Shown in pieces: positions 49,027 through 62,762 of a stretch of DNA of 64,000 bases. Each line of letters begins with the position of its first letter. The stretch's first letter is position 1. The stretch covers positions 62,001 to 126,000 of the forward strand of contig NZ_QOIL01000015.1 in assembly GCF_003323745.1 (NCBI RefSeq), read 5' to 3'. The stretch comes from Sphaerisporangium album. GTDB lineage: Bacteria; Actinomycetota; Actinomycetes; Streptosporangiales; Streptosporangiaceae. The position numbers and the translations under genes were made by a program. The notes beneath the pieces were generated by a model. It ran no database searches, was not told where the DNA came from, and saw nothing but the letters and a program-made list of their open reading frames with translations.

Positions 49027-49668
49027 TCAGAGATCGGCCAGCGTCAGCGGCCCGTACCGTGCGGCCGACGCCCCGGTGACGTAGGCCCAATAGCGGTCGC
49101 CATAGCACCAGTGCCACCACTCGGTCGGATAGTTGATCAAGCCCGCCGCCTCCAGCGCCTCGCCGAGGATGTGACGGCGCTCGGCGGCGTCCGTGGAGAT
49201 CGACGTGCTCGCGGTGTGGCAGGCATCGGTGTCGGTGTCGTTGACCTGCGTGCCGAGCCATAGCTCGTTGCCGTCCGCGTCGCACAGGGTCAGGTCCACG
49301 GCGGCGCCGGCCACGTGCGGCGCGACCTCCGGCGGCGAGATGTAGCGGCCGGCCTCGCGGCGGTACCAGGCCGGCTCATGGCCGGGGCGGGCCGTGCGGA
49401 GACGGTCGACGTGGGCGTCGAAGTACCGTTTCTGCAGCTCCAGGGGCCGGAAGCCTTCGATGACGAGGAAGTGCAGCTCGGGCGGCAGCAGGGTCTGCGC
49501 GGTGACCAGGCGGTCCACGACGCTGAGCCGGAGCCGGGCGTACGCCCCCGCCGCATCGGCCAGGCGCGGGTCGAGGCGCAGTGCCGGGATGCCGCGCAGG
49601 TCGAGCAGCTTCTCCCCGGACTCCACGACCGGGATCCGGCTGATCACAGGATCGGAGAGCAGGATCAT
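49027..49668 (-). CDS. VanX-like D-alanyl-D-alanine dipeptidase
   Basis: 213 aa, peptidase family M15D. Zinc ligands H118, D125 (APHVAGAAVD) and H186, with catalytic E183 (TEWWHW). No signal peptide, so it is cytoplasmic like VanX/DdpX, and would split D-Ala-D-Ala dipeptide. ATG at 49668 with GAAGGAAA Shine-Dalgarno. No vanH/vanA ligase genes are adjacent, so glycopeptide resistance is not indicated. Its neighbours are peptidoglycan hydrolases, suggesting a recycling or scavenging role. A frameshifted paralogue is at 54326. Confidence 0.9.
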   Translation of the reverse strand: MILLSDPVISRIPVVESGEKLLDLRGIPALRLDPRLADAAGAYARLRLSVVDRLVTAQTLLPPELHFLVIEGFRPLELQKRYFDAHVDRLRTARPGHEPAWYRREAGRYISPPEVAPHVAGAAVDLTLCDADGNELWLGTQVNDTDTDACHTASTSISTDAAERRHILGEALEAAGLINYPTEWWHWCYGDRYWAYVTGASAARYGPLTLADL

Positions 49669-49714
49669 TTCGTTTCCTTCGGTGGTCGGTTCGGGCTGGG
49701 CGCGATAGCCGTGA

Positions 49715-49749
49715 GCGCCGGCGGCCGCAGTGGGTGCGGCCACCGGCGC
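49715..49749 (-). terminator. terminator after the GH25 gene
   Basis: GCGCCGGCGGCCGCA pairs with TGCGGCCACCGGCGC, 15-bp arms with one mismatch and a 5-nt loop, in the gap before the vanX-like gene. Confidence 0.65.
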
Positions 49750-49766
49750 TGGGTGGGGTGGTGGGA

Positions 49767-51857
49767 TCAGTTGTTGGCGGCGGTGGTGAGAAGCTGGCGG
49801 AAGATTCCCCAGCCGGTGCCCAGGCTCTTGTAGGCGGCGAAGCTGAAGGTGGTGGCGGTGCTGGTGCTGCGCCAGATCATGAGTTCGTCGCCGCCGTTGA
49901 AGCCGATGATGTCGCTCTTGCCGTCGGCGTCGAAGTCGCCGCCGATGAATTTCGTGACGGTGCGCCATCCGGTGGAGACGAAGACCCCGGTGGTGGAGAA
50001 GTTGCCGGGGGTGCTGGTGTTGCGGTGGATCCACAGGTCGCTGCCGGCGATTCCGGCGATGTCGACCTTGCCGTCGCCGTCGTAGTCGGCCAGGGGGAGG
50101 AACTGGGTGAAGATTCCCCAGCCGGTGCCGAGGCTTTTGTAGGCGGCGAAGCTGAATGTGGTGGCGGTGCTGGTGCTGCGCCAGATCATGAGTTCGTCGC
50201 CGCCGTTGAAGCCGATGATGTCGCTCTTGCCGTCGGCGTCGAAGTCGCCGCCCATGAACTTGCTGACGGTGCGCCATCCGGTGGAGACGAAGACCCCGGT
50301 GGTGGAGAAGTTGCCGGGGGTGCTGGTGTTGCGGTGGATCCACAGGTCGCTGCCGGCGATTCCGGCGATGTCGACCTTGCCGTCGCCGTCGTAGTCGGCC
50401 AGGGGGAGGAACTGGGTGAAGATTCCCCAGCCGGTGCCGAGGCTTTTGTAGGCGGCGAAGCTGAATGTGGTGGCGGTGCTGGTGCTGCGCCAGATCATGA
50501 GTTCGTCGCCGCCGTTGAAGCCGATGATGTCGCTCTTGCCGTCGGCGTCGAAGTCGCCGCCCATGAACTTGCTGACGGTGCGCCATCCGGTGGAGACGAA
50601 GACCCCGGTGGTGGAGAAGTTGCCGGGGGTGCTGGTGTTGCGGTGGATCCACAGGTCGCTGCCGGCGATTCCGGCGATGTCGACCTTGCCGTCGCCGTCG
50701 TAGTCGGCCAGGGGCAGGAGCTTGTCGAAGATTCCCCAGCCGGTGCCGAGGCTTTTGTAGGCGGCGAAGCTGAATGTGGTGGCGGTGCTGGTGCTGCGCC
50801 AGATCATGAGTTCGTCGCCGCCGTTGAAGCCGATGATGTCGTCCTTGCCGTCGGCGTCGAAGTCCCCGGCCATGAACTTGCCGACGGTGCCCCAGCCGGA
50901 GGAGATGAACGTGCCCTGCGTGGAGAAGTTTCCGGGGGTGCTGGTGTTGCGGTGGATCCACAGGTCACCGCCCGCCACGCCGGCGATGTCCTGCTTCCCA
51001 TCGCCATCGAAATCGCCGAGCGTCCCCGGCAACGGTGCGGGAGGCGGAGGGACGTCGCGGTGGGCGAGAGCGTCCAGTTGAGCCTGCGTGCCGTTGAAGA
51101 CGTTCAGCGTGACGTTAGTGGTGGGGACTCCGGGGACGCTGCCGACGTCGGCGTACTGCCACATCAGCCAGGTGCTCCAGCCGGGCGGCACCCTCGGGGT
51201 CGTCCGTCCGCTGCCGTAGTCGGCGACCTGGAGTCCGTAGGAGCCGAAGGCGGTGGTGCTCGCCATGCACCCCGTCATGAAGCCGGCCGCCGTGTAGATC
51301 CACGGCTTGACGCCGAAGGCCGCCTGCACCTTGTCCAGGAAGATCTGCGCCTGCGAGACCGTGGTGTACGGCGGGCAGGCGCTGGTGCCGTCGTCGGTCC
51401 ACTCCATGTCCAGGATCGGCGGCAACTCGCCCGCCCGGTGTCCGGTGTAGCCCGCGGCGCGCAACTCGGCGATGAAGTAGTCGGCCTGCGCGCCGGCGGT
51501 GTTCGCGCTGTAGCCGGTGAAGAAGTGGTACGGCGCGGTGGCGATCCCCTGGGCCAGAGACGCGGCCAGGTCGCCCCGGAAGTAGGAGTTGATCTTGTTG
51601 GTGCTCCTGGTGGCCTTCAGCGTCGCGAAGGTCACTCCGGACTGGCGGATCTGGGACCAGTTCACCGAGGCGCCGCCCGGGTGCTGGTATTCAGTGATGT
51701 CCACGCCCTTCACCGGATACTGTCCCGGCTGCGGGCTTGCGGACGAGGCGTTCGCGGGCTGTCCGAGCGCCCCGGCGATTCCGACGGCGAGGACCGCGGC
51801 GACGAGACGGTGAGCCCACTTCGACCGTCGCCCGAACTGAACTGAGAACGCGGACAT
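49767..51857 (-). CDS. secreted GH25 muramidase with FG-GAP repeat array
   Basis: 696 aa. Signal peptide about 1-37 (cleavage ANA-SS). GH25 domain about 48-250 with D53 (GVDITEYQ) and catalytic D150-x-E152 (ILDMEWTDD); cleaves the MurNAc-GlcNAc bond of peptidoglycan. From about 275 comes a Ca-binding FG-GAP/VCBS-type array: four 103-residue units, each with two D-x-D-x-D-G-x-x-D loops (DFDGDGKQD; DFDADGKDD), predicted to form a beta-propeller. ATG at 51857 (GGAG upstream) preferred over GTG 51872. Two units are identical in DNA, and one unit is identical to one in the next gene. Confidence 0.9.
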   Translation of the reverse strand: MSAFSVQFGRRSKWAHRLVAAVLAVGIAGALGQPANASSASPQPGQYPVKGVDITEYQHPGGASVNWSQIRQSGVTFATLKATRSTNKINSYFRGDLAASLAQGIATAPYHFFTGYSANTAGAQADYFIAELRAAGYTGHRAGELPPILDMEWTDDGTSACPPYTTVSQAQIFLDKVQAAFGVKPWIYTAAGFMTGCMASTTAFGSYGLQVADYGSGRTTPRVPPGWSTWLMWQYADVGSVPGVPTTNVTLNVFNGTQAQLDALAHRDVPPPPAPLPGTLGDFDGDGKQDIAGVAGGDLWIHRNTSTPGNFSTQGTFISSGWGTVGKFMAGDFDADGKDDIIGFNGGDELMIWRSTSTATTFSFAAYKSLGTGWGIFDKLLPLADYDGDGKVDIAGIAGSDLWIHRNTSTPGNFSTTGVFVSTGWRTVSKFMGGDFDADGKSDIIGFNGGDELMIWRSTSTATTFSFAAYKSLGTGWGIFTQFLPLADYDGDGKVDIAGIAGSDLWIHRNTSTPGNFSTTGVFVSTGWRTVSKFMGGDFDADGKSDIIGFNGGDELMIWRSTSTATTFSFAAYKSLGTGWGIFTQFLPLADYDGDGKVDIAGIAGSDLWIHRNTSTPGNFSTTGVFVSTGWRTVTKFIGGDFDADGKSDIIGFNGGDELMIWRSTSTATTFSFAAYKSLGTGWGIFRQLLTTAANN
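49795..51030 (-). repeat. FG-GAP array, four 309-bp units (GH25 gene)
   Basis: Period exactly 309 bp. 50101-50405 and 50410-50714 are identical as far as I can read, and 50701-50999 is identical to 52628-52926 in the neighbouring gene. Confidence 0.9.
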
Positions 51858-51945
51858 GTCTGCTCCGATCACCTGGGAATTCCGCGGGTTCTTGACCGGT
51901 CCGGCGTCGTGCGCTTGGGCACGACCACTCGAACGCGGGGAAGGC

Positions 51946-51991
51946 GCGAGCGTCGGTGGCCGTGGCGTGCGCTGCGGCCACCGACGCTCGC
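51946..51991 (-). terminator. terminator after NlpC-type gene 1
   Basis: GCGAGCGTCGGTGGCC (51946-51961) pairs perfectly with GGCCACCGACGCTCGC (51976-51991), 14-nt loop, 12 bp past the stop. Confidence 0.7.
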
Positions 51992-52002
51992 CGGTGTCGT
52001 GG

Positions 52003-53607
52003 TCAGCTCACGGCCGCGGAGGTGAGAAGCTGGCGGAAGATTCCCCAGCCGGTGCCTAGGCTCTTGTACGCGGCGAAGCCGAAGTCGGTGGCGTTACTGC
52101 TGCTGCGCCAGATCATGAGTTCGTCGCCGCCGTTGAAGCCGATGATGTCGCTCTTGCCGTCCGCGTCGAAGTCCGCTCCGAGGAACTTGCTGACGGTGAG
52201 CCAGCCGGAGGAGACGAACACACCCTGCGTCGAGAAGTTGCCCGGCGTGCTGGTGTTGCGGTGGATCCACAGATCGCTGTACGCCACGCCCGCGATGTCC
52301 TTCTTGCCGTCGCCGTCGTAGTCGGCCAGGGGCAGGAGCTTGTCGAAGATTCCCCAGCCGGTGCCGAGGCTTTTGTAGGCGGCGAAGCTGAATGTGGTGG
52401 CGGTGCTGGTGCTGCGCCAGATCATGAGTTCGTCGCCGCCGTTGAAGCCGATGATGTCGTCCTTGCCGTCGGCGTCGAAGTCCCCGGCCATGAACTTGCC
52501 GACGGTGCCCCAGCCGGAGGAGATGAACGTGCCCTGCGTGGAGAAGTTTCCGGGGGTGCTGGTGTTGCGGTGGATCCACAGGTCGCTGCCGGCGATGCCG
52601 GCGATGTCCTTCTTGCCGTCGCCGTCGTAGTCGGCCAGGGGCAGGAGCTTGTCGAAGATTCCCCAGCCGGTGCCGAGGCTTTTGTAGGCGGCGAAGCTGA
52701 ATGTGGTGGCGGTGCTGGTGCTGCGCCAGATCATGAGTTCGTCGCCGCCGTTGAAGCCGATGATGTCGTCCTTGCCGTCGGCGTCGAAGTCCCCGGCCAT
52801 GAACTTGCCGACGGTGCCCCAGCCGGAGGAGATGAACGTGCCCTGCGTGGAGAAGTTTCCGGGGGTGCTGGTGTTGCGGTGGATCCACAGGTCACCGCCC
52901 GCCACGCCGGCGATGTCCTGCTTCCCGTCACCGTCGAAATCACCCAGGGTCCCCAGTTGCTGCGGCACGGGCGGCGGCGTTTGCGGGTCCTCGATGACGT
53001 TGTTGTAGTGGATGGCGTGCTCGAAATTGCTCGTGATGTCGTTCAGGGACCGGAAACCGAGGTTGCCGAAGTTGCTGTTCCGTGACGGGTTGCGCACCGT
53101 CTCACCGGTGCTGTTGAACGAGTAGAAGTAGGCGCCCTCGGAGTGGTTGGCGTTGTTCTTCCAGCGCGCGAACAGCTCGGTGTGGTCCGACAGGCCCTTG
53201 AAGTTCACCCGCAGTACGGCGTCTCCCGGCTTGAGGTCGTTGAAGCTCCCGAGGCGGGTCAGCCGGCTTCCTCCGATCCAGCTCTCGAAGACGCTGGTGT
53301 CGTAGTAGCCCTCGGTCAGGTGCCAGACCATCGAGATGAGCCCGGAGCAGTCGCGGCGATATCTCTCACCCCCCGTGGGGCCGGTTCGCCATGTGCTCTT
53401 GTCCGAGCTGTTCAGGTAGGTGTAACCCTGGTCCACCCAGTGCTGGGCACGGGCCAGGACCTCGGAGCGGGTGATCTGGCCGCCGGCCGACGAGGCGGCG
53501 TGGGCCGGGGCGGCGGTCGCGACCGAGGTGACCACGGTGCCCGTGAAGCCGATGGCCGCTGCCACCATCGTGCCGAGGGCGCCGGAGACTAGGCGGTTGA
53601 GTTTCAT
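52003..53607 (-). CDS. secreted NlpC/P60-like hydrolase with FG-GAP array (block B)
   Basis: 534 aa. Signal peptide about 1-37 (AHA-AS). Catalytic domain about 45-210 with Cys in RRDCSGLISM (C87) and His in GLSDHTEL (H142), the order of NlpC/P60-like amidase/endopeptidases that cut peptide bonds in peptidoglycan. From about 218 follow three 103-residue FG-GAP units of the same type as in the GH25 gene. ATG at 53607 with GGAAGGG Shine-Dalgarno. It is paralogous to the gene at 57000 in the catalytic part only; the repeats differ. Confidence 0.86.
   Translation of the reverse strand: MKLNRLVSGALGTMVAAAIGFTGTVVTSVATAAPAHAASSAGGQITRSEVLARAQHWVDQGYTYLNSSDKSTWRTGPTGGERYRRDCSGLISMVWHLTEGYYDTSVFESWIGGSRLTRLGSFNDLKPGDAVLRVNFKGLSDHTELFARWKNNANHSEGAYFYSFNSTGETVRNPSRNSNFGNLGFRSLNDITSNFEHAIHYNNVIEDPQTPPPVPQQLGTLGDFDGDGKQDIAGVAGGDLWIHRNTSTPGNFSTQGTFISSGWGTVGKFMAGDFDADGKDDIIGFNGGDELMIWRSTSTATTFSFAAYKSLGTGWGIFDKLLPLADYDGDGKKDIAGIAGSDLWIHRNTSTPGNFSTQGTFISSGWGTVGKFMAGDFDADGKDDIIGFNGGDELMIWRSTSTATTFSFAAYKSLGTGWGIFDKLLPLADYDGDGKKDIAGVAYSDLWIHRNTSTPGNFSTQGVFVSSGWLTVSKFLGADFDADGKSDIIGFNGGDELMIWRSSSNATDFGFAAYKSLGTGWGIFRQLLTSAAVS
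52028..52954 (-). repeat. FG-GAP array, three 309-bp units (NlpC-type gene 1)
   Basis: Same 309-bp unit type as in the GH25 gene. The second and third units are identical over about 250 bp. Confidence 0.88.
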
Positions 53608-53661
53608 GGTGTCCCTTCCGGGGAGGCGTTTCGTCCTGCACCGGAAGGTTCGGATGGGGCA

Positions 53662-53683
53662 CTGAAAATTCGCTGAAACTCCG
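53662..53683 (-). promoter_or_regulatory. tandem 11-bp repeats, candidate SARP operator (block B)
   Basis: CTGAAAATTCG and CTGAAACTCCG (plus-strand reading) directly abut, 54 bp upstream of the start at 53607. Same layout as 58599-58620. Confidence 0.5.
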
Positions 53684-53696
53684 TGGAGCGGGGATT

Positions 53697-54200
53697 TCAG
53701 GACGCGGGCGCACCCTCGGTGAGCTCGGCGAGCATGGTCGCCTCGCCGAGTCGGTCGCCCGCGCGGCCTGGTTGATCCGCTCCCGGGCCTCGAACCTGTT
53801 GACCCCGAGGAACGACGGGCCCAGCCGGGCCGAGGCGAACTGGCACACCAGGTCGTGCAGGCCGAGGGCGGCAGCGCGCTCCAGGCCGACGACCAGCGCG
53901 GGCCGCTCGATGTCGAACCAGTCGTGCGGGGCCGCCAGCACCTGCGCCACCAGCTCGCGCGGGACCGGCGAGGCCGCCACGGCGGGGCGCCGCCAGCCGA
54001 TCTCGTCGGACGGGGTGTGGACGGTCACCTGTTCGGCCACGCTCAGCCAGCCGCCGAGCACCCGGCCCACGGCCGCCGCCGCCCCTTCGGCCGACTCCTC
54101 CGCCTCGGCCCGTTCGCTCCCGTAGATCCGTACCAGGTCGTGCATCCGGTACCGGAGCGTGCCGATCTCGTCGACCCGGCTGAAGTCCACGAGCTGTAGC
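53697..54200 (-). pseudogene. remnant of a SARP/AfsR-type regulator gene
   Basis: Homologous to the intact regulator at 58634: about 53757-54198 corresponds to its central region (parental 59540-59966, the end of the NB-ARC region through FGARERIN-like residues), and 53697-53735 corresponds to its last codons and stop. About 825 bp between them is lost, with a junction at GAGCTCGGC, a sequence present at both parental points, so the deletion looks microhomology-mediated. The frame is shifted. The DNA-binding N-terminus and P-loop are absent. It cannot make a working regulator. Confidence 0.85.
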
Positions 54201-54325
54201 AGCCGTCGTAGTCGAAACCGGGCTCGTACATGCGGTCGGTCCACGGGGCCGCCCAGTCGAGGGCGTAATGGCCTGTGAACCTTTGGCGTCGAGAACGCCG
54301 CCTCGGCGCGACCGGCGCCGCGCGG

Positions 54326-54966
54326 TCAGAAGCCGGCCCGCGTCACCGGCCCGTACCGCGCGGCCGACGCCCCGGTGACGTAGGCCCAGTAGCGGTCGCC
54401 GTAAGACCAGTGCCACCACTCGGTCGGGTAGTTGACCAGGCCGGCCGCCGTCAGCGCCTCGCCGAGGACGCGGCGGCGCTCCGCGGCCTCGGCCGGGACG
54501 GCGGTGCCGGCGGTGTGGCAGGCGTCGGTGTCGGTGTCGTTGACCTGCGTGCCCAGCCACAGCTCGTTGCCGTCCGCGTCGCACAGGGTCAGGTCGACGG
54601 CGGCTCCCGCCACGTGCGGTGCGACCTCGGGCGGGGAGATGTAGCGGCCGGCCTCCCGGCGGTACCAGGCGTGGTCGTGGCCGGGGTGGGCGATCTTGAG
54701 CCGGTCGACGTGGGCGTCGAAGTACCGTTGCTGGAGTTCGATGGGGCGGAAGCCTTCGACGATCAGGAAGTGGAGTTCGGGGGGAGGAGGGTTTGTGCGG
54801 TGACGAGGCGGTCCACGACGCTGAGGCGTAGGTGGCCGTAGTCGCCGTCCGGGTCGGCCAGGCGCGGGTCGAGGCGCAGCGCCTGGACGCTTCGCAGGTC
54901 GACCAGCTTTTCCCCGGCCTCCTCGACCGGAATGCGGCTGATCACGGGATCGGAGAGCAGGATCAT
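54326..54966 (-). pseudogene. frameshifted VanX-like D,D-dipeptidase paralogue
   Basis: Closely similar to the gene at 49027 along its length, but split: residues 1-62 (to VTAQTLLPP) and the rest (ELHFLIVEGFRP to the end) are in different frames. The change is one missing base in a G-rich run at about 54779-54790, where the intact paralogue reads GGGCGGCAGCAGGG. The zinc motifs (APHVAGAAVD; TEWWHW) are intact in the second frame. It may be a pseudogene, a phase-variable gene or a sequencing error in the G run. Confidence 0.82.
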
Positions 54967-54995
54967 TGTCTGTCCTCATCGGGTCTGGACGGCTA

Positions 54996-55030
54996 GACAG
55001 GCCGCCCGGTGGGAGTCCGGGCGGCCTGTC
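54996..55030 (-). terminator. terminator after the lysozyme-like gene
   Basis: GACAGGCCGCCCGG pairs perfectly with CCGGGCGGCCTGTC, 7-nt loop, 50 bp past the stop at 55080. Confidence 0.7.
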
Positions 55031-55079
55031 CGCGCTTGGGAGGAGGGAGGTGCGGTGGTATGGCACCGCCTGGTCGGGA

Positions 55080-56123
55080 TCAGAGGGGGTTGGTGCGGGT
55101 CTGGTCCCAGCCGCCGGGGCCGGAGTCCCAGACGTTGGCCGGTCCGGTGAATCCGCCCGTGGCTTTGGCGGTCCAGACGAACAGGACGGTTCGCAGGTCC
55201 GGGTAGTTGTAGAACACTCCCACGTCGGTCATGCCGTCGCCGTTGAAGTCGCCGTTGACGGGCTTGGATCGGGTCTGGTCCCAGCCGCCGGCGCCGGAGT
55301 CCCACACGTTGGCCGGTCCCGTGAACCCGCCTCCGGTCTTGGCGGACCAGACGAAAAGCACCGTCCGCAGGCCGGGGTAGTCGTAGTAGACGCCGACGTC
55401 TGCCCGGCCGTCGCCGTTGAAGTCGCCGTTGACGGGCTTGGATCGGGTCTGGTCCCAGCCGCCGGCCCCGGAGTCCCACACGTTGGCCGGTCCCGTGAAC
55501 CCGCCTCCGGTCTTGGCCGTCCAGACGAAAAGCACCGTCCGCAAGTCCGGGTAGTTGTAGAACACTCCCACGTCGGTCATGCCGTCGCCGTTGAAGTCGC
55601 CGTTGACGGGCTTGGATCGGGTCTGGTCCCAGCCGCCGGCCCCGGAGTCCCACACGTTGGCCGGTCCGGTGAACCCGCCTCCGGTCTTGGCGGACCAGAC
55701 GAAAAGCACCGTCCGCAGGCCGGGGTAGTCGTAGAACACTCCGACGTCTCCGCGGCCGTCGCCGTTGAAGTCTCCGCTGACGGGCTTGGATCGAGTCTGG
55801 TCCCAGCCGCCGGCCCCGGAGTCCCACACATTGGCCGGTCCGGTGAACCCGCCTCCGGCTTTCGCCGTCCAGACGAACAGGACGGTTCGCAGGTCCGGAT
55901 AGTTGTAGAACACTCCGACGTCTGCCCGGCCGTCGCCGTTGAAGTCGCCGTTGACGGGCTTGGACCGGGTCTGGTCCCAGCCGCCGGGGCCGGAGTCCCA
56001 CACGTTGGCCGGTCCGGTGAACCCGCCTCCGGCTTTCGCCGTCCAGACGAACAGCACCGTCCGCAGGCCGGGGTAGTCGTAGAACGCCGCCACGTCATCG
56101 AGACCGTCGCCGTTGTAATCCGC
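55080..56123 (-). repeat. FG-GAP array, six 174-bp units
   Basis: The GTCTGGTCCCAGCC landmark recurs at 55099, 55273, 55447, 55621, 55795 and 55969, exactly 174 bp apart. Confidence 0.9.
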
Positions 56124-56858
56124 CCGCATGCCTGAAGAATCCGCAGGAGGTGCGGACGGAGGCTCTGCGGTCCAGAGGGCGTCGACGAGTAGTTGGGCGT
56201 CGTGGACCTCTCTGCCGTAAGCGTCCGGGACCGCGGAGACCTGCACGGTCTGGCAGATGGTCCCGATGTCCCCGCTCATCCAACCGTTGTTGGGAAACTT
56301 GCGCAGCATGGCGTTGAGGAACGCGTTGGTGGAGTACACCGGGTCGGTCAACTGGGCGGGGGTGCCCCAGCCCTGCGACGGGCGCTGCTGGAACAGTCCC
56401 AGGCTGTCGTGATCCACGGCAACGGTGTAATTGTGCAAGGTGCTTTCGGTGATGGCGGTGGTCACGGCGATCACAGCCGCTCGCTTGTCCAGGCTCCGGC
56501 TCTTGGTCGTGTCAACGATGATCCGGGCGCACGAGACGTTGTAGGCGTTCACGCTCTGTCCCAGGCGCGGGCCGTTCATCTGTGGCCGTACCTGGCCGGC
56601 GATGGCGGCGTCGGTGCCGGTCTCCCCGCCTGGTACGCATGCGGCGTAGGCCAGCATCGGCGCCAGTTCGGTGGACACCGGAGGGCCTGCCGGACCGGGA
56701 ATGCCGGCCGTTGGCGTCGGGTGAGGAGCTTGCGCTGCCGCGGTGCCGGTACCGCTGGCGAGGAAGCCGGCGACGAGAACGGTCAGCACGATCAGTAGGC
56801 GAACGACGGGTACGCGAGGGGCAGTGCCACGAGGGACATGGGGATGGGTCGAGTCCAC
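55080..56858 (-). CDS. secreted lysozyme-like (transglycosylase-type) protein with FG-GAP array
   Basis: 592 aa. Signal anchor/peptide about 1-43. Domain about 60-230 contains ITESTLHNYTVAV (E138 as candidate catalytic Glu) and DHDSLGLFQQRPSQGWG, a motif of actinobacterial transglycosylase-like domains; the enzymatic assignment is inferred. From about 245 come six FG-GAP units of 58 residues (174 bp), each with D-x-N-G-D-G and FYDYPGLRTVLF. GTG at 56858 with GGAG upstream is preferred over 56990. It holds the place of the GH25 gene in the paralogous block. Confidence 0.78.
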   Translation of the reverse strand: MDSTHPHVPRGTAPRVPVVRLLIVLTVLVAGFLASGTGTAAAQAPHPTPTAGIPGPAGPPVSTELAPMLAYAACVPGGETGTDAAIAGQVRPQMNGPRLGQSVNAYNVSCARIIVDTTKSRSLDKRAAVIAVTTAITESTLHNYTVAVDHDSLGLFQQRPSQGWGTPAQLTDPVYSTNAFLNAMLRKFPNNGWMSGDIGTICQTVQVSAVPDAYGREVHDAQLLVDALWTAEPPSAPPADSSGMRADYNGDGLDDVAAFYDYPGLRTVLFVWTAKAGGGFTGPANVWDSGPGGWDQTRSKPVNGDFNGDGRADVGVFYNYPDLRTVLFVWTAKAGGGFTGPANVWDSGAGGWDQTRSKPVSGDFNGDGRGDVGVFYDYPGLRTVLFVWSAKTGGGFTGPANVWDSGAGGWDQTRSKPVNGDFNGDGMTDVGVFYNYPDLRTVLFVWTAKTGGGFTGPANVWDSGAGGWDQTRSKPVNGDFNGDGRADVGVYYDYPGLRTVLFVWSAKTGGGFTGPANVWDSGAGGWDQTRSKPVNGDFNGDGMTDVGVFYNYPDLRTVLFVWTAKATGGFTGPANVWDSGPGGWDQTRTNPL

Positions 56859-56910
56859 AGTTCTTCTCCGGGGGGTGGCTCTGGCGGGACCTGGTCGGGG
56901 ATCTGGCGAC

Positions 56911-56945
56911 CAGTGCGGCGTGCGGGACCACCGCACGCCGCACTG
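56911..56945 (-). terminator. terminator after NlpC-type gene 2
   Basis: CAGTGCGGCGTGCGG pairs perfectly with CCGCACGCCGCACTG, 5-nt loop. Confidence 0.7.
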
Positions 56946-56999
56946 CTGGTCGGCCCAGCAGGGTTCGGCCGACTGCTGGAGTTCAGGCATGCGTGGTGA

Positions 57000-57869
57000 T
57001 CAGAGGGGTTTGGTGCGGGATTGGTCCCAGCCGCCTGCGCCGGAGTCCCAGGCGTTGACGGGTCCGGTGAAGCCGCCTGCGGTCTTGGCCGTCCAGGTGA
57101 ACAGGACGGTTCGGAGGCCGGGGTAGTCGTAGAGGATGCCGACGTCTCCCCGGCCGTCGCCGTTGTAGTCGCCGCTGACGGGCTTGGATCGTGTCTGGTC
57201 CCAGCCGCCTGCGCCGGAGTCCCAGGCGTTGACGGGTCCGGTGAACCCGCCTGCGGTCTTGGCCGACCAGGTGAACAGGACGGTTCGCAGGCCGGGGTAG
57301 TCGTAGAAGACGCCGACGTCGGTCATGCCGTCGCCGTTGAAGTCGCCGCTGACGGGCTTGGATCGTGTCTGGTCCCAGCCGCCTGCGCCGGAGTCCCAGG
57401 CGTTGACGGGTCCGGTGAAGCCGCCTGCGGTCTTGGCCGACCAGGTGAACAGGACGGTTCGCAGGCCGGGGTAGTCGTAGAAGACGCCGACGTCGGTCAT
57501 GCCGTCGCCGTTGAAGTCGCCGGTGACGGGCTTGGACCGTGTCTGGTCCCAGCCGCCTGCGCCCGAGTCCCAGGCGTTGACCGGTCCGGTGAAGCCGCCC
57601 CCGGTCTTGGCCGTCCAGGTGAACAGGACGGTTCGCAGGCCGGGGTAGTCGTAGAAGACGCCGACGTCGGTCATGCCGTCGCCGTTGAAGTCGCCGCTGA
57701 CGGGCTTGGACCGTGTCTGGTCCCAGCCGCCTGCGCCCGAGTCCCAGGCGTTGACCGGTCCGGTGAAGCCGCCCCCGGTCTTGCCCGACCAGACGAACAG
57801 GACGGTTCGCAGGCCGGGGTAGTCGTAGAACGCCGCCACGTCACCGAGACCGTCGCCGTTGAAATCGGC
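57000..57869 (-). repeat. FG-GAP array, five 174-bp units
   Basis: Landmark TGGTCCCAGCC-type repeats at 57019, 57193, 57367, 57541 and 57715. The units are more alike to each other than to those of the gene at 55080 (CAGGCGTTGACGGG versus CACGTTGGCCGG variants). Confidence 0.88.
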
Positions 57870-58538
57870 TCGCAGACCTCCATTGCCGGTCGCGTCGTCT
57901 ACCGGCGGGGTGGCCCCCGGGTCGTCGAGGATGCCGTTGTAGTGGATCGCGTGCTCGAAGTCGCTGGTGATGGCGCTCAGGGAGCGGAAGCCCAGGTTCC
58001 CGAAGTTGCTGTCCTTGTACGGGTTGCGCACCGTCTCGCCGGTGCTGTTGAACGAGTAGAAGTAGGCGCCGGCGCCGTGGTCGGCGTTGTTCTTCCAGCC
58101 GGCGAACACCTCGATGTGGTCCGACAGGCCCTTGAAGTTCACCCGGAGGACGGCGTCACCCGGCTTGAGGTCGTTGAAGCTGTCCAGGCGGGTGATCCGG
58201 CCGCCGATCCAGCTCTCGAAGACGCTGGTGTCGTAGTAGCCCTCGGACAGGTGCCAGACCATCGAGACCAGCCCGGAACAGTCGCGGCGATACTTCTCGC
58301 TCCCGACCGGGCCCGTCCGCCATGTGGTTTTATCCGAGCTGTTTAAGTAGGTGTACCCCTGGTCGACCCAGTACTGGGCCCGGGACAAGACCTCGGAGCG
58401 GGTGATCTGGCCGTCGGCCGTGGAGGCGGCGTGCGCGGGCGTGGCGACGGTGACGGTGGTGACCGCGGCGGCAGAGAAGCTGAGGGCCGCTGCCACCATC
58501 GCGCTGAGCGTGCTGGAGATCAGGCGGTTGAGTTTCAT
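57000..58538 (-). CDS. secreted NlpC/P60-like hydrolase with FG-GAP array (block A)
   Basis: 512 aa. Signal peptide about 1-37 (AHA-AS). Catalytic domain nearly the same as in the gene at 52003: Cys in RRDCSGLVSM (C87) and His in GLSDHIEV (about H141). From about 225 there are five FG-GAP units of 58 residues (174 bp), the type found in the neighbouring lysozyme-like gene, not the 103-residue type of its paralogue. ATG at 58538 with GGAAGGA Shine-Dalgarno. The longer open frame is only the shadow of the regulator gene. The candidate SARP operator is 61 bp upstream. Confidence 0.87.
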   Translation of the reverse strand: MKLNRLISSTLSAMVAAALSFSAAAVTTVTVATPAHAASTADGQITRSEVLSRAQYWVDQGYTYLNSSDKTTWRTGPVGSEKYRRDCSGLVSMVWHLSEGYYDTSVFESWIGGRITRLDSFNDLKPGDAVLRVNFKGLSDHIEVFAGWKNNADHGAGAYFYSFNSTGETVRNPYKDSNFGNLGFRSLSAITSDFEHAIHYNGILDDPGATPPVDDATGNGGLRADFNGDGLGDVAAFYDYPGLRTVLFVWSGKTGGGFTGPVNAWDSGAGGWDQTRSKPVSGDFNGDGMTDVGVFYDYPGLRTVLFTWTAKTGGGFTGPVNAWDSGAGGWDQTRSKPVTGDFNGDGMTDVGVFYDYPGLRTVLFTWSAKTAGGFTGPVNAWDSGAGGWDQTRSKPVSGDFNGDGMTDVGVFYDYPGLRTVLFTWSAKTAGGFTGPVNAWDSGAGGWDQTRSKPVSGDYNGDGRGDVGILYDYPGLRTVLFTWTAKTAGGFTGPVNAWDSGAGGWDQSRTKPL

Positions 58539-58598
58539 CGAAATCCTTCCGATGGAGGCGCGTTGTGCGTCCTTGCACCGAAAGGTTCGAGTCGGGCG

Positions 58599-58620
58599 CT
58601 GAAACTCCGCTGAAAATCCG
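58599..58620 (-). promoter_or_regulatory. tandem 11-bp repeats, candidate SARP operator (block A)
   Basis: CTGAAACTCCG and CTGAAAATCCG (plus-strand reading) abut at 58599-58609 and 58610-58620. On the coding strand the shared heptamer is TTTCAGC-like with 11-bp period. It lies between the regulator stop and NlpC-type gene 2. Confidence 0.55.
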
Positions 58621-58633
58621 TGGAGGGCGGATT

Positions 58634-61600
58634 TCAGGACGCGGGCGCACCCTCGGCGAGCTCGGCGTACTCGCGGGCGCCGTGGTCGTGGAAGACCTTG
58701 ACGACCCGGGCGCGGATCTCGGCAGCGGTCTCGGTCTCGCCGCGGGCCTCGTGCAGCAGGGCGAGGTCGCGTTCGGTGCGGGCGAGCCACAGCGGGGCCT
58801 CCATGTCCCGCCACACGTCCATCGCCGCGGTGAGGCAGGCCGCCGCGTCCGTCAGGTCGCCGTCGGCCAGGTGCAGCTCGCCGAGGGTGCGCAGGGCCAT
58901 GCCCAGCCCCCAGCGGTCGCCCATCGCCTGGCAGGTCGACAGCACGCCCTCCAACGGGGCCAGAGCCAGGTCGGTCCGGCCCAGGCGGAGCCGCGCCTTG
59001 GCCAGCGCGCGGATCGAGTGCGCCTCCATCAGCTTGTCGCCGAGCCGGGCGAAGATGGCCGCCGCGGCCTCGGCCGTCTCGATCGCCGGGACGTAGCGGC
59101 CGGTGGCCCGGTGGAACAGGCTCATCGTGCGCAGCGTCACCGCCTCGCCGCGCGGGCTGCCGAGACGGCGGTAGGCGGCCAGGGACTGCTCCAGACCGGA
59201 CCAGGCGGTGGGGTAGTCGCCGAGCTCCAGCCGTACGGAGGCGGCCAGCCGCAGCAGGTAGAAGGTCCCTACGTCCTCGCCGAGCTCCGCCAGCAGCGTG
59301 GTGGCCTGGTCGAGGAAGTGCAGCGACTCGACCAGGCGTCCCGCCTCCCGGCAGGTGATGCCGAGCCCGGCGAGTGCCACGGCCTGGCCGCGCGCGTCGC
59401 CGAGCTCGCGGAAGGCGCCGAGCGCCTCGCCCAGGACCCGGCGGGCCTCCGGGAAGCGGTCCTGGTCGTAGCGGAGCTGCCCGAGCTCGGCCAGCATGGT
59501 CGCCACGCCGTTCTGGTCGCCCGCGCGGCGCGCCGCGGCCAGCGCCGCCTGGTTGATCCGCTCCCGGGCCTCGAACCTGTTGACCCCGAGGAACGAGGGG
59601 CCGAGCCGGGCCGAGGCGAACTGGCACACCAGGTCGTGCAGGCCGAGGGCGGCGGCGCGCTCCAGGCCGACGACCAGCGCGGGCCGCTCGATGTCGAACC
59701 AGTCGTGCGGGGCCGCCAGCACCTGCGCCACCAGCTCGCGCGGGACCGGCGAGGCCGCCACGGCGGGGCGCCGCCAGCCGATCTCGTCGGACGGGACGTG
59801 GGCGGTCACCTGCTTGGCCACGCTCAGCCAGCCGCCGAGCACGCGGCCCACGGCCGCCGAGACCGTTTCGGGGGATTCCTCCGCCTCCGCCCGCTCGCTC
59901 CCGTAGATCCGTACCAGGTCGTGCATCCGGTACCGGAGCGTGCCGATGTCGTCCACCCGGCTGAAGTCCACGAGCTGCGCGTCGACCAGGCGCTCCACGA
60001 TGTCCTCGGCGAGCGTCGCCGGGACGTCGTTCAGCCAGGCGACGATCCACGGGGAGAACTCCGGGACGCCCAGATGGCCGAGCCGCCGCAGCGCGAGGCG
60101 CGCGTCGTCGTCAAGCCCCCGGTAGCTGAGTTCGAAGCCGGCCCGGACCTCGAGGTCCGCGATGGCCAGCTCGTCCAGCCGCCGCCGTTCGTCGGTCAGC
60201 CGGTCGGCCAGCAGCCGCAGCGGCCAGCGCTGACGGGTGGCCAGCCGGGCCCCGGCGATGCGGATCGCCAGCGGCAGCCGGCCGCACAGCTCGGCGATTT
60301 CCCGGGCCACCGGCTCCTCCGCCGCCACCCGCTCGGGCCCGACGATCCTGACGAGCAGCTCGATGGCCTCGGCGGGGTCGAGGACGTCCAGGTCGGTACG
60401 GCGGACGCCGCCGAGGCCGCCGAGCCGGTTGCGCGAGGTGATCAGCACGCCGCCGCCGGGACCGCCGGGCAGCAGTGGGCGCACCTGCCGCTCGTCGGCG
60501 GCGTCGTCCAGGAGCACCAGCACCCGGCGGCCGGCCAGCAGGGACCGGTACAGCTCGGCCCGCTCCGGGGTTCCGGCCGGGACGGCGGAGGGCTCGACCC
60601 CGAGCGCCGTGAGGAACCGGCCGAGCACCTCGCCGGCGTCGGCGGGGGTCTCGCCCATCCCGCGTAACTCGGCGTACAGCTGACCATCGGGGAAGGCGGC
60701 GGCGACCCGGTGGGCGACGTGCACCGCCAGGGCCGATTTGCCGGTGCCTGCGCGGCCCGCGACGACCTGGATGACCGGGGACGCGCCCGCGGTCAGCGCC
60801 GTGACCAGGGCGGAGGTCTCGGCCGCGCGGCCGGTGAAGTCCGCGGGCGCCAGCGGGAGCTGGGCCGGCGCGGCGACGCGGACCGTATCGCCGGACGGCG
60901 GCGCCAGCAGGGCGGGGTCGCCGCGCAGGATGGCGTGGTACAGCTCGGTCAGCTCTGGACCCGGGTCCACGCCGAGCTCCTCGGCCAGCACCTCGCGGCT
61001 CTCCCGGAAACCGGCCAGGGCGTCGGACTGGCGGCCGAGCCGGTACAGCGCGGTCATGTACTGGGCGCGCAGCCGCTCGTTGACGGGGTGACGGCCGACC
61101 AGCGCGGCCAGCTCGCTCACCAGCTCGCCGTGCCGGCCGAGCGCGAGATCCGCCTCGATGCGCTCCTCGGTGGCGGTCAGCCGGAGCTGTTCCAGCCGGG
61201 CCACTTCCCCGCCCAGCGGTGAGGTGCCCAGCCCGGCCAGGGCGGGCCCGCGCCACAGGGCCAGCGCCGCGCCGAGCAGGTCGGAGGTCTCCTGGAGATT
61301 GGACGCCTGCCGCGCCTTGGCCAGGAGTTGCTCGAACCGGTCCACGTCCAGCGACCCGACGGGGAGCTGCGCCATGTAGCCGGGCGCGCGGGTGACGATC
61401 ACGTCGGTGATGCCGTACCGGGCCAGGGCCTGGCGCAACGTCTTGACGTAGGTCTGGATCGCCGCCTTGGCGGTCTCCGGCGGGTCGTCCGGCCAGAGGA
61501 TGTCGATCAGCCGGGCCATCGGCACGATGTGCCCGTGCTCCAGCAGCAGCGTGGCCAGCAAGGTCTGCGGCTTGGCTCCGCCCAGCGGGACGGACACCCC

Positions 61601-61645
61601 CGTAGCCGCCGTCACTTCGACCGGCCCCAGAAGCCGAAACTCCAC
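58634..61645 (-). CDS. AfsR/SARP-type regulator with NB-ARC and TPR domains
   Basis: 1003 aa. Order: OmpR-like winged helix (1-95; MEFRLLGPVEV, RLIDILWPDDPPETA), bacterial transcriptional activator domain (about 96-250), NB-ARC ATPase (about 270-545; P-loop GRAGTGKSALAVH about 297, RVLVLLDDAADE Walker B), linker, and C-terminal TPR-like repeats (about 730-990). SARPs activate nearby genes by binding direct repeats. Its place at the head of the hydrolase genes suggests that it controls them. The GTG at 61645 is preferred (GGGGAG 5 nt upstream) over the open frame to 61816. A deleted copy is at 53697. Confidence 0.88.
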   Translation of the reverse strand: MEFRLLGPVEVTAATGVSVPLGGAKPQTLLATLLLEHGHIVPMARLIDILWPDDPPETAKAAIQTYVKTLRQALARYGITDVIVTRAPGYMAQLPVGSLDVDRFEQLLAKARQASNLQETSDLLGAALALWRGPALAGLGTSPLGGEVARLEQLRLTATEERIEADLALGRHGELVSELAALVGRHPVNERLRAQYMTALYRLGRQSDALAGFRESREVLAEELGVDPGPELTELYHAILRGDPALLAPPSGDTVRVAAPAQLPLAPADFTGRAAETSALVTALTAGASPVIQVVAGRAGTGKSALAVHVAHRVAAAFPDGQLYAELRGMGETPADAGEVLGRFLTALGVEPSAVPAGTPERAELYRSLLAGRRVLVLLDDAADERQVRPLLPGGPGGGVLITSRNRLGGLGGVRRTDLDVLDPAEAIELLVRIVGPERVAAEEPVAREIAELCGRLPLAIRIAGARLATRQRWPLRLLADRLTDERRRLDELAIADLEVRAGFELSYRGLDDDARLALRRLGHLGVPEFSPWIVAWLNDVPATLAEDIVERLVDAQLVDFSRVDDIGTLRYRMHDLVRIYGSERAEAEESPETVSAAVGRVLGGWLSVAKQVTAHVPSDEIGWRRPAVAASPVPRELVAQVLAAPHDWFDIERPALVVGLERAAALGLHDLVCQFASARLGPSFLGVNRFEARERINQAALAAARRAGDQNGVATMLAELGQLRYDQDRFPEARRVLGEALGAFRELGDARGQAVALAGLGITCREAGRLVESLHFLDQATTLLAELGEDVGTFYLLRLAASVRLELGDYPTAWSGLEQSLAAYRRLGSPRGEAVTLRTMSLFHRATGRYVPAIETAEAAAAIFARLGDKLMEAHSIRALAKARLRLGRTDLALAPLEGVLSTCQAMGDRWGLGMALRTLGELHLADGDLTDAAACLTAAMDVWRDMEAPLWLARTERDLALLHEARGETETAAEIRARVVKVFHDHGAREYAELAEGAPAS

Positions 61646-61931
61646 CGCCACTCCCCGTATGTCGGCTTTCCGGCGAGGCAGTTTTACTGAATTAACAGAT
61701 ATGTAGGCACAGCATGGCCAGTGCCGGCTCGGCGCGCAAGGTCGCGCGACGGGCTTCCTTTCGTGATCCAACCATTGAGCCACAGGCCTCGCGCGGAGCT
61801 GGAGCCGGACACTCACGCGGCTCGCGCCCGCGCGCCCCGGGGCGGGGGACGGCGGCGGGCCGGGCGGCGGTAGCCTGAGAGCTTGCCGGGGAGGCGGGTG
61901 GGCCGCCTGGGACCGCAGAGCAGGGGGCAGG

Positions 61932-62762
61932 GTGAAGCTTCTCCACTCCGGGAAGGTGCGGGACGTCTACGAGGATCGTGGGGACATCGTCCTCGTGGCC
62001 TCCGACCGCGTCTCCGTCTACGACGTCATCCTGCCGACGCCCATCCCCGACAAGGGCAAGGTCCTCACGCGGCTGTCGCTGTGGTGGTTCGAGCAGCTCG
62101 CCGACGTCGTCCCCAACCACGTGATCTCGGCCACCGACGTCCCCCCGGAGTTCGCGGGGCGGGCCGTGCGGTGCCGCAGGCTGGACATGGTCTCCGTCGA
62201 GTGCATCGCGCGCGGCTACCTCACCGGGTCCGGCCTGAAGGAGTACCAGGCGCGCGGCTCGGTGTCCGGCGTCGCGCTGCCGCCCGGCCTCGTCGAGGGC
62301 TCACGACTGCCCGAGCCGATCTTCACGCCCACCACCAAGGCCCCGCTCGGCGAGCACGACGAGTTCATCACCTTCGACGACGTGATCGCCCAGGAAGGCG
62401 CCGAGACCGCCGAAGAGCTCCGCCGCGCCACCCTGGAGGTCTACCGGCGCGGCGCCGAGATCGCCGCCGAGCGCGGCATCCTCATCGCGGACACCAAGCT
62501 GGAGTTCGGCCGGTCCGCCGACGGCACGCTCATGCTCGGGGACGAGCTGCTGACCTCCGACTCCTCCCGCTTCTGGGCCGCCGGCCAGTGGCGGCCGGGG
62601 CGCGCGCAGCACTCGTTCGACAAGCAGTTCGTCCGCGACTGGGCCACCGGGACGGGCTGGGACAAGCAGGCCCCCGCCCCGGAGGTCCCCGCCGGCATCG
62701 TCGAGGCCACGCGCGCCCGCTACATCGAGGCCTACGAGCTCATCACCGGCAAGGCCTGGTAG
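61932..62762 (+). CDS. purC: phosphoribosylaminoimidazole-succinocarboxamide synthase
   Basis: 276 aa. Purine pathway: joins aspartate to CAIR to give SAICAR. Starts KLLHSGKVRDVYE; conserved IARGYLTGSGLKEY, ADTKLEFG and the DSSRFW / SFDKQFVRDW region are present. GTG start with a G-rich Shine-Dalgarno (GCAGGGGGCAGG). It is separate from purKE, 16 kb away. Confidence 0.93.
   Translation: MKLLHSGKVRDVYEDRGDIVLVASDRVSVYDVILPTPIPDKGKVLTRLSLWWFEQLADVVPNHVISATDVPPEFAGRAVRCRRLDMVSVECIARGYLTGSGLKEYQARGSVSGVALPPGLVEGSRLPEPIFTPTTKAPLGEHDEFITFDDVIAQEGAETAEELRRATLEVYRRGAEIAAERGILIADTKLEFGRSADGTLMLGDELLTSDSSRFWAAGQWRPGRAQHSFDKQFVRDWATGTGWDKQAPAPEVPAGIVEATRARYIEAYELITGKAW

Follow-up and report, generated by a model that had tools for sequence, protein, structure and literature searches.

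A stretch of Sphaerisporangium album DNA (64,000 nucleotides; assembly GCF_003323745.1, contig NZ_QOIL01000015.1, positions 62,001 to 126,000 of the forward strand), hereafter the window, raises a simple question. Two neighbouring genes encode enzymes predicted to cut different bonds of peptidoglycan, and both end in the same beta-propeller. Beside them lies a second version of the arrangement, in which both enzymes end in another propeller. How do unrelated enzymes of one locus come to share a module, and what would this sharing serve? The answer that we consider fairly probable is that two wall-lysis cassettes, each addressed by a lectin, lie in the window, and that within each the module serves a common target, is kept alike by gene conversion and is replaced jointly. 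The anatomy of the cassettes, the matching of modules within loci and their joint turnover can be read directly from the sequences compared here.

The two blocks stand in tandem on the minus strand, block A at 61816-54326 and block B at 54196-49027. Their features are as follows.

58634..61816, minus strand: SARP_A, a SARP-type regulator (Trans_reg_C, BTAD, NB-ARC, TPR; Pfam BTAD 5.3e-45, NB-ARC 6.2e-12, TPR_12 3.9e-26), whose true start may lie near 61645.
57000-58538, minus strand: Nlp_A, whole gene.
57879..58538, minus strand: Nlp_A signal peptide (by eye) and NlpC/P60-like peptidase domain (Cys87, His141), 83% amino-acid identity to the Nlp_B domain.
57000..57878, minus strand: Nlp_A module, five 58-residue FG-GAP propeller units, 84% to the Mur_A module.
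55080-56990, minus strand: Mur_A, whole gene, whose true start is probably downstream of 56990.
56133..56990, minus strand: Mur_A N-terminus and predicted GH184-like muramidase domain (Glu182, Asp193), from profile A1 against 8b2h and 8b2e.
55080..56132, minus strand: Mur_A module, six 58-residue FG-GAP units, homologue of the UmbA4 lectin (phmmer 3.4e-56 to 9oee_A).
54326..54967, minus strand: vanX_A, a VanX-like M15 gene, out of frame, from its reading frame and DNA homology to vanX_B.
53721..54196, minus strand: SARP remnant of block B, an inner SARP stretch followed by the last SARP codons (90.7% DNA identity to 59977-59483).
52003-53607, minus strand: Nlp_B, whole gene.
52957..53607, minus strand: Nlp_B signal peptide (by eye) and NlpC/P60-like peptidase domain (Cys87, His142), from paralogy to Nlp_A and invariant Cys and His.
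52003..52956, minus strand: Nlp_B module, three 103-residue FG-GAP units (77% to locus L028; PVL lectin 1.3e-11).
49767-51872, minus strand: GH25_B, whole gene.
51027..51872, minus strand: GH25_B signal peptide (by eye) and GH25 muramidase domain (Pfam PF01183, 1.2e-35).
49767..51026, minus strand: GH25_B module, four 103-residue units (91% to Nlp_B over 313 amino acids).
49027..49668, minus strand: VanX_B, an intact VanX-like M15 dipeptidase with no signal peptide by eye (Pfam PF01427, 63.1 bits).

The initial annotation, made from the letters of the window, had the gene order, coordinates and unit lengths right; the arrays measure 5 x 58 residues in Nlp_A, 6 x 58 in Mur_A, 3 x 103 in Nlp_B and 4 x 103 in GH25_B. 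It also correctly took the NlpC domains for paralogues (84.5% DNA, 83% amino-acid identity), the repeat type of each block as common to the neighbouring muramidase gene, and the muramidase domain as different between blocks; its "lysozyme-like" domain of block A is here refined to GH184-like, as against GH25 in block B. The propellers are 84% identical over 292 amino acids between Nlp_A and Mur_A and 91% over 313 between Nlp_B and GH25_B. Between blocks A and B they are remotely homologous, being 25-27% alike, and the 103-residue unit contains two FG-GAP-like motifs by eye. At the DNA level the blocks resemble each other in the SARP gene (59977-59483 and 54196-53721, 90.7%), in the NlpC-like catalytic part with its upstream DNA (58667-57918 and 53730-52984, 84.5%) and in vanX (54967-54326 and 49669-49027, 85.5%). 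The homologous stretch after the SARP remnant starts at 53730, paired with 58667 inside the SARP 3' end, and the peptidase homology ends in the linker ahead of the propeller. A second comparison recovered the same pieces, and the rest of the genome added no more than one relative of vanX (C12, 72% across 289 bases) and some matches that were short and weak.

Is the window a special case? Scanning named genomes with the muramidase domain of Mur_A (the Mur domain), we kept 80 of 95 relatives, which together with L029 make 81 loci, from Nonomuraea, Sphaerisporangium, Actinoplanes, Amycolatopsis and others. A C-terminal part of at least 40 amino acids follows the Mur domain in 75 of the 81, the other 6 being dropped, and in 51 of these 75 another open frame of the same locus shares at least 120 amino acids of the module. 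The remaining 24 comprise 11 solo genes of Actinoplanes and relatives, the solo genes L094 and L098, three loci that match only over 58-98 amino acids (L069, L077, L079), L095, which matches only overlapping frames of its own, and seven that lie at contig ends, at a run of N or without a recognised neighbour. That a Mur gene stands solo was established by inspecting each gene of the locus in L080, L094 and L098, and by hidden Markov model (HMM) in the other ten. The solo Mur genes of L080-L089 and L113 (Actinoplanes and relatives) carry one conserved FG-GAP module and have no recognised partner.

Of the 49 loci that have both a module and a hydrolase neighbour recognised by HMM, 48 carry that module on the nearest such neighbour as well, at 48-100% identity (at least 75% in 34). 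The partner enzymes are M23, CHAP, NlpC-like and M15-like, the last two assigned partly by eye, and three or four enzymes carry one module in L101, L108, L116, L125 and L126. Two random partnered loci share a module cluster with a probability of 0.12, and the partner's module retrieves the Mur module of its own locus first in 42 of 51. Another 40 Mur places, 39 of them from the family and one from the class, made up a second set. Twelve of these repeat named loci; the remaining 28 hold 30 Mur genes, 16 of them with a C-terminal module. Thirteen of these 16 have a recognised hydrolase neighbour within 1 kb, and all 13 neighbours match (79-99.6%). The exceptions are L213 and L216, with no recognised neighbour, and L230, whose neighbour at 3.8 kb matches partially at the locus end. 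The 14 Mur genes of this set that have no C-terminal module show no recognised peptidase neighbour. L214 resembles the window in carrying a pair of cassettes, separated by 9 kb, that differ in module and are each matched internally, and the TRM90804 genome holds several (L074, L099, L109, L146), again with different modules, each matched. In L069, L093, L097, L100, L102, L110, L120, L123 and L129 the Mur frame runs off the contig end in or just before the module; near-identical modules may break short-read assemblies, and cassettes would then be undercounted in draft genomes.

Does the module follow the enzyme or the locus? Modules were grouped by single linkage at 45% identity, giving 22 clusters overall and 17 among partnered loci, and set on a quick tree of Mur domains in which 34 of 79 branches are open. 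Across the 76 labelled rows this tree requires a minimum of 31 changes of cluster (26 when eight short, cut or doubtful modules are set aside), and among partnered loci (51 rows, namely 50 loci and the window) a minimum of 22; FG-GAP, tachylectin-like and PLL-like modules are among the types involved. In L070 and L074, Mur domains as much as 89% alike precede modules that are about 25% alike; for the window and L071 the figures are 86% and 24%. The Mur domains of L096 and L125 (up to 85%), L029 and L101, and L109 and L116 (82-83%) precede modules without detectable similarity. In all of these (L070, L074, L071, L096, L125, L109, L116, L029, L101 and the window) the module of the partner is at least 80% identical to that of the Mur gene in its locus. 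Within-locus similarity exceeds the similarity to any other locus in 38 of 51, L134 included. The clusters on the Mur tree and the pair identities bear out the initial annotation's proposal that propellers were exchanged independently of catalytic domains and matched within the locus; the pattern that it described proved to be one case of a wider rule, also covering modules other than FG-GAP.

What might the modules bind? Residues 1-340 of the 348 in the Mur_A module align with 9oee_A (phmmer 3.4e-56), and Foldseek relates the whole Mur_A model (mean predicted local distance difference test, pLDDT, 76.7) to the same chain at 1.3e-22. The title of that entry names UmbA4 with S. griseus teichuronic acid; the study that we take as matching it, PMC13274773, states in its accessible part that the target species is decided by the UmbA lectins. 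The 103-type module matches the fungal N-acetylglucosamine lectin PVL (1.3e-11), the L078 module matches PLL lectins (2.6e-19), and the L109 module matches the umbrella-particle chain 8w20_C (1.4e-14), an entry of the first umbrella paper (PMC11062931, accessible part). It is thus likely, from homology, that the modules bind a common surface polymer, and this homology to lectins is what stands of the initial annotation's suggestion that the propellers determine the target. ALF repeats (PF03752), the repeats of UmbC, occur at 0 places in the window's genome and are present in 1 of 11 genomes of the genus, and Pfam lists no trypsin-like domain in the four propeller proteins. As the genome is without ALF repeats, the lectins seem to work here without umbrella particles. 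In L036 and L037 (= L146, L131) the shared module is an NlpC-like domain whose Cys position reads Gly, and in loci of this type a dead peptidase may serve as the binding module. L138 was grouped with this NlpC-like module by cluster, the Gly having been read in L036 and L037 only.

Whose wall would be addressed? Attack on other bacteria is probably the purpose, and the one we favour. Actinomycetes use NlpC and M23 enzymes in development, and the strongest rival, unlikely but deserving serious weight, is that the sets remodel the producer's own wall during sporulation or hyphal growth, with modules that follow its changing glycopolymers. The known developmental role of these enzyme families speaks for it, as does the single conserved module of some lineages (the Actinoplanes solo genes and the Amycolatopsis group). 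However, one genome may hold several cassettes with different modules (the window, L214, TRM90804), and the module of block A is closely related to a lectin used in attack. Additionally, of 296 genomes drawn evenly across the phylum, the window's own included, 2 have Mur domains (E <= 1e-30), which would be odd for core development.

Ready-matched cassettes could also have spread by horizontal transfer, with no exchange in place, and among related Mur loci the peptidase family and the module do often differ jointly (M23 in L071, CHAP in L068, NlpC-like in L069). We regard this as improbable, since it does not sit with Mur domains as much as 89% alike beside modules only about 25% alike. The orthologues of L071 and L073 are 88.7% identical, whereas the within-locus pairs reach 97.9% and 90.0%, and blocks A and B share peptidase DNA at 84% but not propeller DNA.

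How, then, would the modules be kept alike? Among 37 pairs with at least 75% amino-acid identity the medians are 95.6% for amino acids and 92.7% for DNA, and 14 of the 37 use the same codon at 95% or more of their identical residues. Identical runs extend over 982 bases in L109, 761 in L078 (a complete genome) and 315 between Nlp_B and GH25_B. Outside the module the likeness stops: the 90 bases ahead of it and the 60 past the stop codon have a median identity of 32% each (random, 29%), and in 29 of 37 pairs both modules extend to within three residues of the stop. L138 and L125 differ from the other pairs in that identity (98% and 100%) continues 60 bases past the stop codons. From such traces we infer gene conversion as the homogenising mechanism.

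Gene conversion requires homology, and because it is homology-bound the tract boundaries alone show no selection. Adjacent repeat-rich genes might simply convert each other, with no selected common target. This neutral account, which we think quite improbable, agrees with shared tracts that stay inside homologous modules and stop at their edges, and with arrays homogenised within a single gene, as in GH25_B, whose units 2 and 3 are identical. It does not explain why unrelated modules are repeatedly matched, nor why matching extends to modules that have few repeats inside them, such as the pair of SH3-like units in L076 (89%) and the NlpC-like module of L138 (96%). An unrelated module cannot enter a second gene by conversion, and therefore the persistence of matching across about 22 type changes suggests that matching is selected for. 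Least likely of all is the account in which the propellers bind the enzymes to one another instead of to a target: UmbA4 with its ligand forms filaments largely via the propeller (accessible part of PMC13274773), but these filaments arose on ligand addition, and the matched modules include known sugar-binding lectin families.

The reading of a common target with conversion and joint replacement also has observations to contend with, and the following weigh against it. Among the 13 partnered loci in which within-locus similarity is not the highest, 11 are tachylectin-like (Amycolatopsis, Kibdelosporangium, Kutzneria, Actinoplanes and relatives), 48-66% alike within the locus and not homogenised; the other two, of three such loci, have the dead NlpC-like module at 60-64%. 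L147, the one non-match of the 49, has only broken M15 pieces as its nearest hydrolase; the partner in L134 is no recognised wall hydrolase and is 37% alike; L136 has an unmatched CHAP gene 3.7 kb off; L130 has an NlpC-like gene 1.2 kb off whose extra part is unmatched; and 13 Mur genes with a module stand alone. In sequence searches the modules of L071 and L090, two of four further types tested, gave no match to a solved lectin. Matched partners were the source of five of the eight family HMMs, which may let unlike neighbours of other families go unnoticed, and the loci are related and were picked by Mur likeness, so that the counts are not independent. Finally, in a GH25 control 0 of 20 freshly fetched loci share at least 120 amino acids of the C-terminal part with a neighbour (20 taken from 23 GH25 places with frames of at least 400 amino acids; the window, L033 and G354:C7 excluded).

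Matching as a general GH25 rule was rejected on this control, and it is therefore a property of Mur cassettes and of some sets where GH25 replaces Mur. L033, a GH25 exception known earlier, has NlpC-like and GH25 modules that are 100% identical over 238 amino acids. Within the control, L166 holds a tandem GH25 pair alike over 98 amino acids at 64%, and the N-terminal parts of L162, L169, L171 and L172 give weak in-locus matches (26-31% over at most 337 amino acids, with no low-complexity filter). A restriction to FG-GAP was likewise rejected, as matching is also seen for tachylectin-like, PLL-like (DUF346), SH3-like and dead NlpC modules. The clearest mismatch is L130:2894-4579, where the neighbour of a matched M15-like/Mur pair is an NlpC-like gene whose module differs and looks tachylectin-like by eye. 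L131, L138 and L146 each contain a third gene, in which no extra part reaches 40 amino acids. A permuted partner, with the tachylectin-like module first and CHAP last, and not homogenised, occurs in L122, L127, L128, L132, L133, L135, L136, L137, L139, L141 and L144.

Are the enzymes what they appear to be? The Mur_A catalytic domain has no match in a Pfam scan, and profile A1 matches the solved enzymes 8b2h (2.8e-18) and 8b2e (4.3e-14), both in the structure table of the GH184 paper (PMC10394673, accessible part). In the Kionochaeta enzyme described there Glu41 is essential by mutation and Asp66 lies near the substrate; their equivalents in the Mur family are invariant in 6 of 6 sequences of A1 and 21 of 21 of A3 (residue numbers in Mur_A and the GH184 chains were counted by hand). 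Mur_A is accordingly a predicted GH184-like muramidase. Profile A1 also matches 7 viral contigs at 37-47%, and a phage origin was considered. GH25_B passes the Pfam cut-off clearly (PF01183, 123.9 bits; cut-off 27). For NlpC/P60 (PF00877, cut-off 23), Nlp_A scores 13.7 bits, below the cut-off, and Nlp_B has no match; the Cys and His columns are invariant in 12 of 12 sequences of alignment A4, and from the motif we take them to be the catalytic pair. A structure model of Nlp_B (pLDDT 76.8) gave propeller matches only among the 50 matches listed, and the peptidase fold is not confirmed by it. VanX_B passes PF01427 (63.1 bits, cut-off 27) and fails the NCBIfam dipept_VanX equivalog (38.6 bits, cut-off 320). 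Having no signal peptide by eye, it is probably outside the secreted set. The initial annotation's secreted wall-degrading set is therefore not supported as regards VanX.

The regulator and the dipeptidase recur with the cassettes. Among the 80 named loci a SARP_A relative (at least 45% identity) occurs in 19, a VanX_B relative in 11 and both in 10, as the initial annotation expected of other genomes; neither relative is found in the 13 solo Mur loci. About 0.25 VanX matches would be expected in these loci from the density in the genus (24 in about 95 Mb), a rough estimate from one genus. The order SARP, peptidase, Mur, VanX is seen in the window and L115, and VanX with SARP stands divergent from peptidase with Mur in L068, L072 and L092. 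D-Ala salvage and self-protection are guesses at the role of VanX. The frame of vanX_A is lost after 'LLPP', and here decay after duplication and an assembly error cannot be told apart.

As to origin, SARP_A is 80% identical to L069 and 79% to L028, Mur_A is 88% identical to L069, whose set carries the 58-type module, and the Nlp_B propeller is 77% identical to L028, where SARP, peptidase and VanX are seen and no muramidase was found. The window's peptidase domains are 83% identical to each other and only 41-50% to L028 and L069; the peptidase was therefore probably replaced in this lineage and the block then duplicated. After the duplication one copy, probably B, would have taken the other lectin and muramidase. 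Beyond block A, an open frame at 61932-62762 on the plus strand reads like PurC (SAICAR synthetase).

Together, these observations suggest the following scheme. Each cassette would supply two secreted enzymes, an NlpC-like peptidase and a muramidase, which would cut different peptidoglycan bonds and carry the same C-terminal beta-propeller lectin. The lectin would bind a surface glycopolymer, and both enzymes would gather on the same wall. The module would be kept alike between the cassette genes by gene conversion, and replaced in all of them when the target changes, while the SARP regulator would drive the set along with the cytosolic VanX-like dipeptidase. Binding specificity, synergy, action on other bacteria, SARP regulation and a role for VanX are thus presumed parts of the scheme. 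More tentatively, and at somewhat less than even confidence, these sets may form a second class of lectin-addressed weapons: hydrolase sets whose enzymes cut different bonds and carry one lectin from the umbrella-toxin pool, exchanged in every enzyme of the set together, with a quiver of sets per genome, each directed at a different neighbour, under antibiotic-type (SARP) control.

If true, the target specificity of extracellular wall lysis in these actinomycetes could be read from the genome via the module, each cassette providing two to four independent copies of the same address. Lectin targeting, demonstrated so far in umbrella particles, would then reach simple secreted enzymes as well. 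The cassettes would also offer a natural case of a domain kept common to unrelated enzymes of one locus, and supply wall-lysing enzymes whose range may be narrow. None of these functional guesses is needed for the matching rule, which any newly sequenced genome can put to the test. In the titles and abstract openings that we found in the open full-text literature, no hydrolase sets with matched modules are described.

Pneumococcal choline-binding hydrolases are the familiar precedent, in which several wall hydrolases of different bond specificity carry one type of wall-binding module. There, one module type serves genome-wide and on the bacterium's own wall, whereas here the module is set per locus, with several per genome. 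NlpC/P60, CHAP and M23 wall peptidases are the catalytic families of the partners, and the modules here follow the locus, not the enzyme family. With the GH184 muramidases (PMC10394673, accessible part) Mur_A shares the catalytic domain and the Glu41 and Asp66 equivalents; the enzymes solved there are fungal, some with SH3-like modules, whereas those here are actinobacterial, with matched modules in gene sets. The umbrella toxins (accessible parts of PMC11062931 and PMC13274773) are close at the level of the address. They too are secreted and have diverse, swappable C-terminal lectins, many of them beta-propellers, and the block-A propeller is homologous to the UmbA4-type lectin along its length. 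The lectins are carried by wall hydrolases here and by the trypsin-like UmbA there, and while umbrella particles draw on an overlapping set of several lectins, the enzymes of one set here share a single one.

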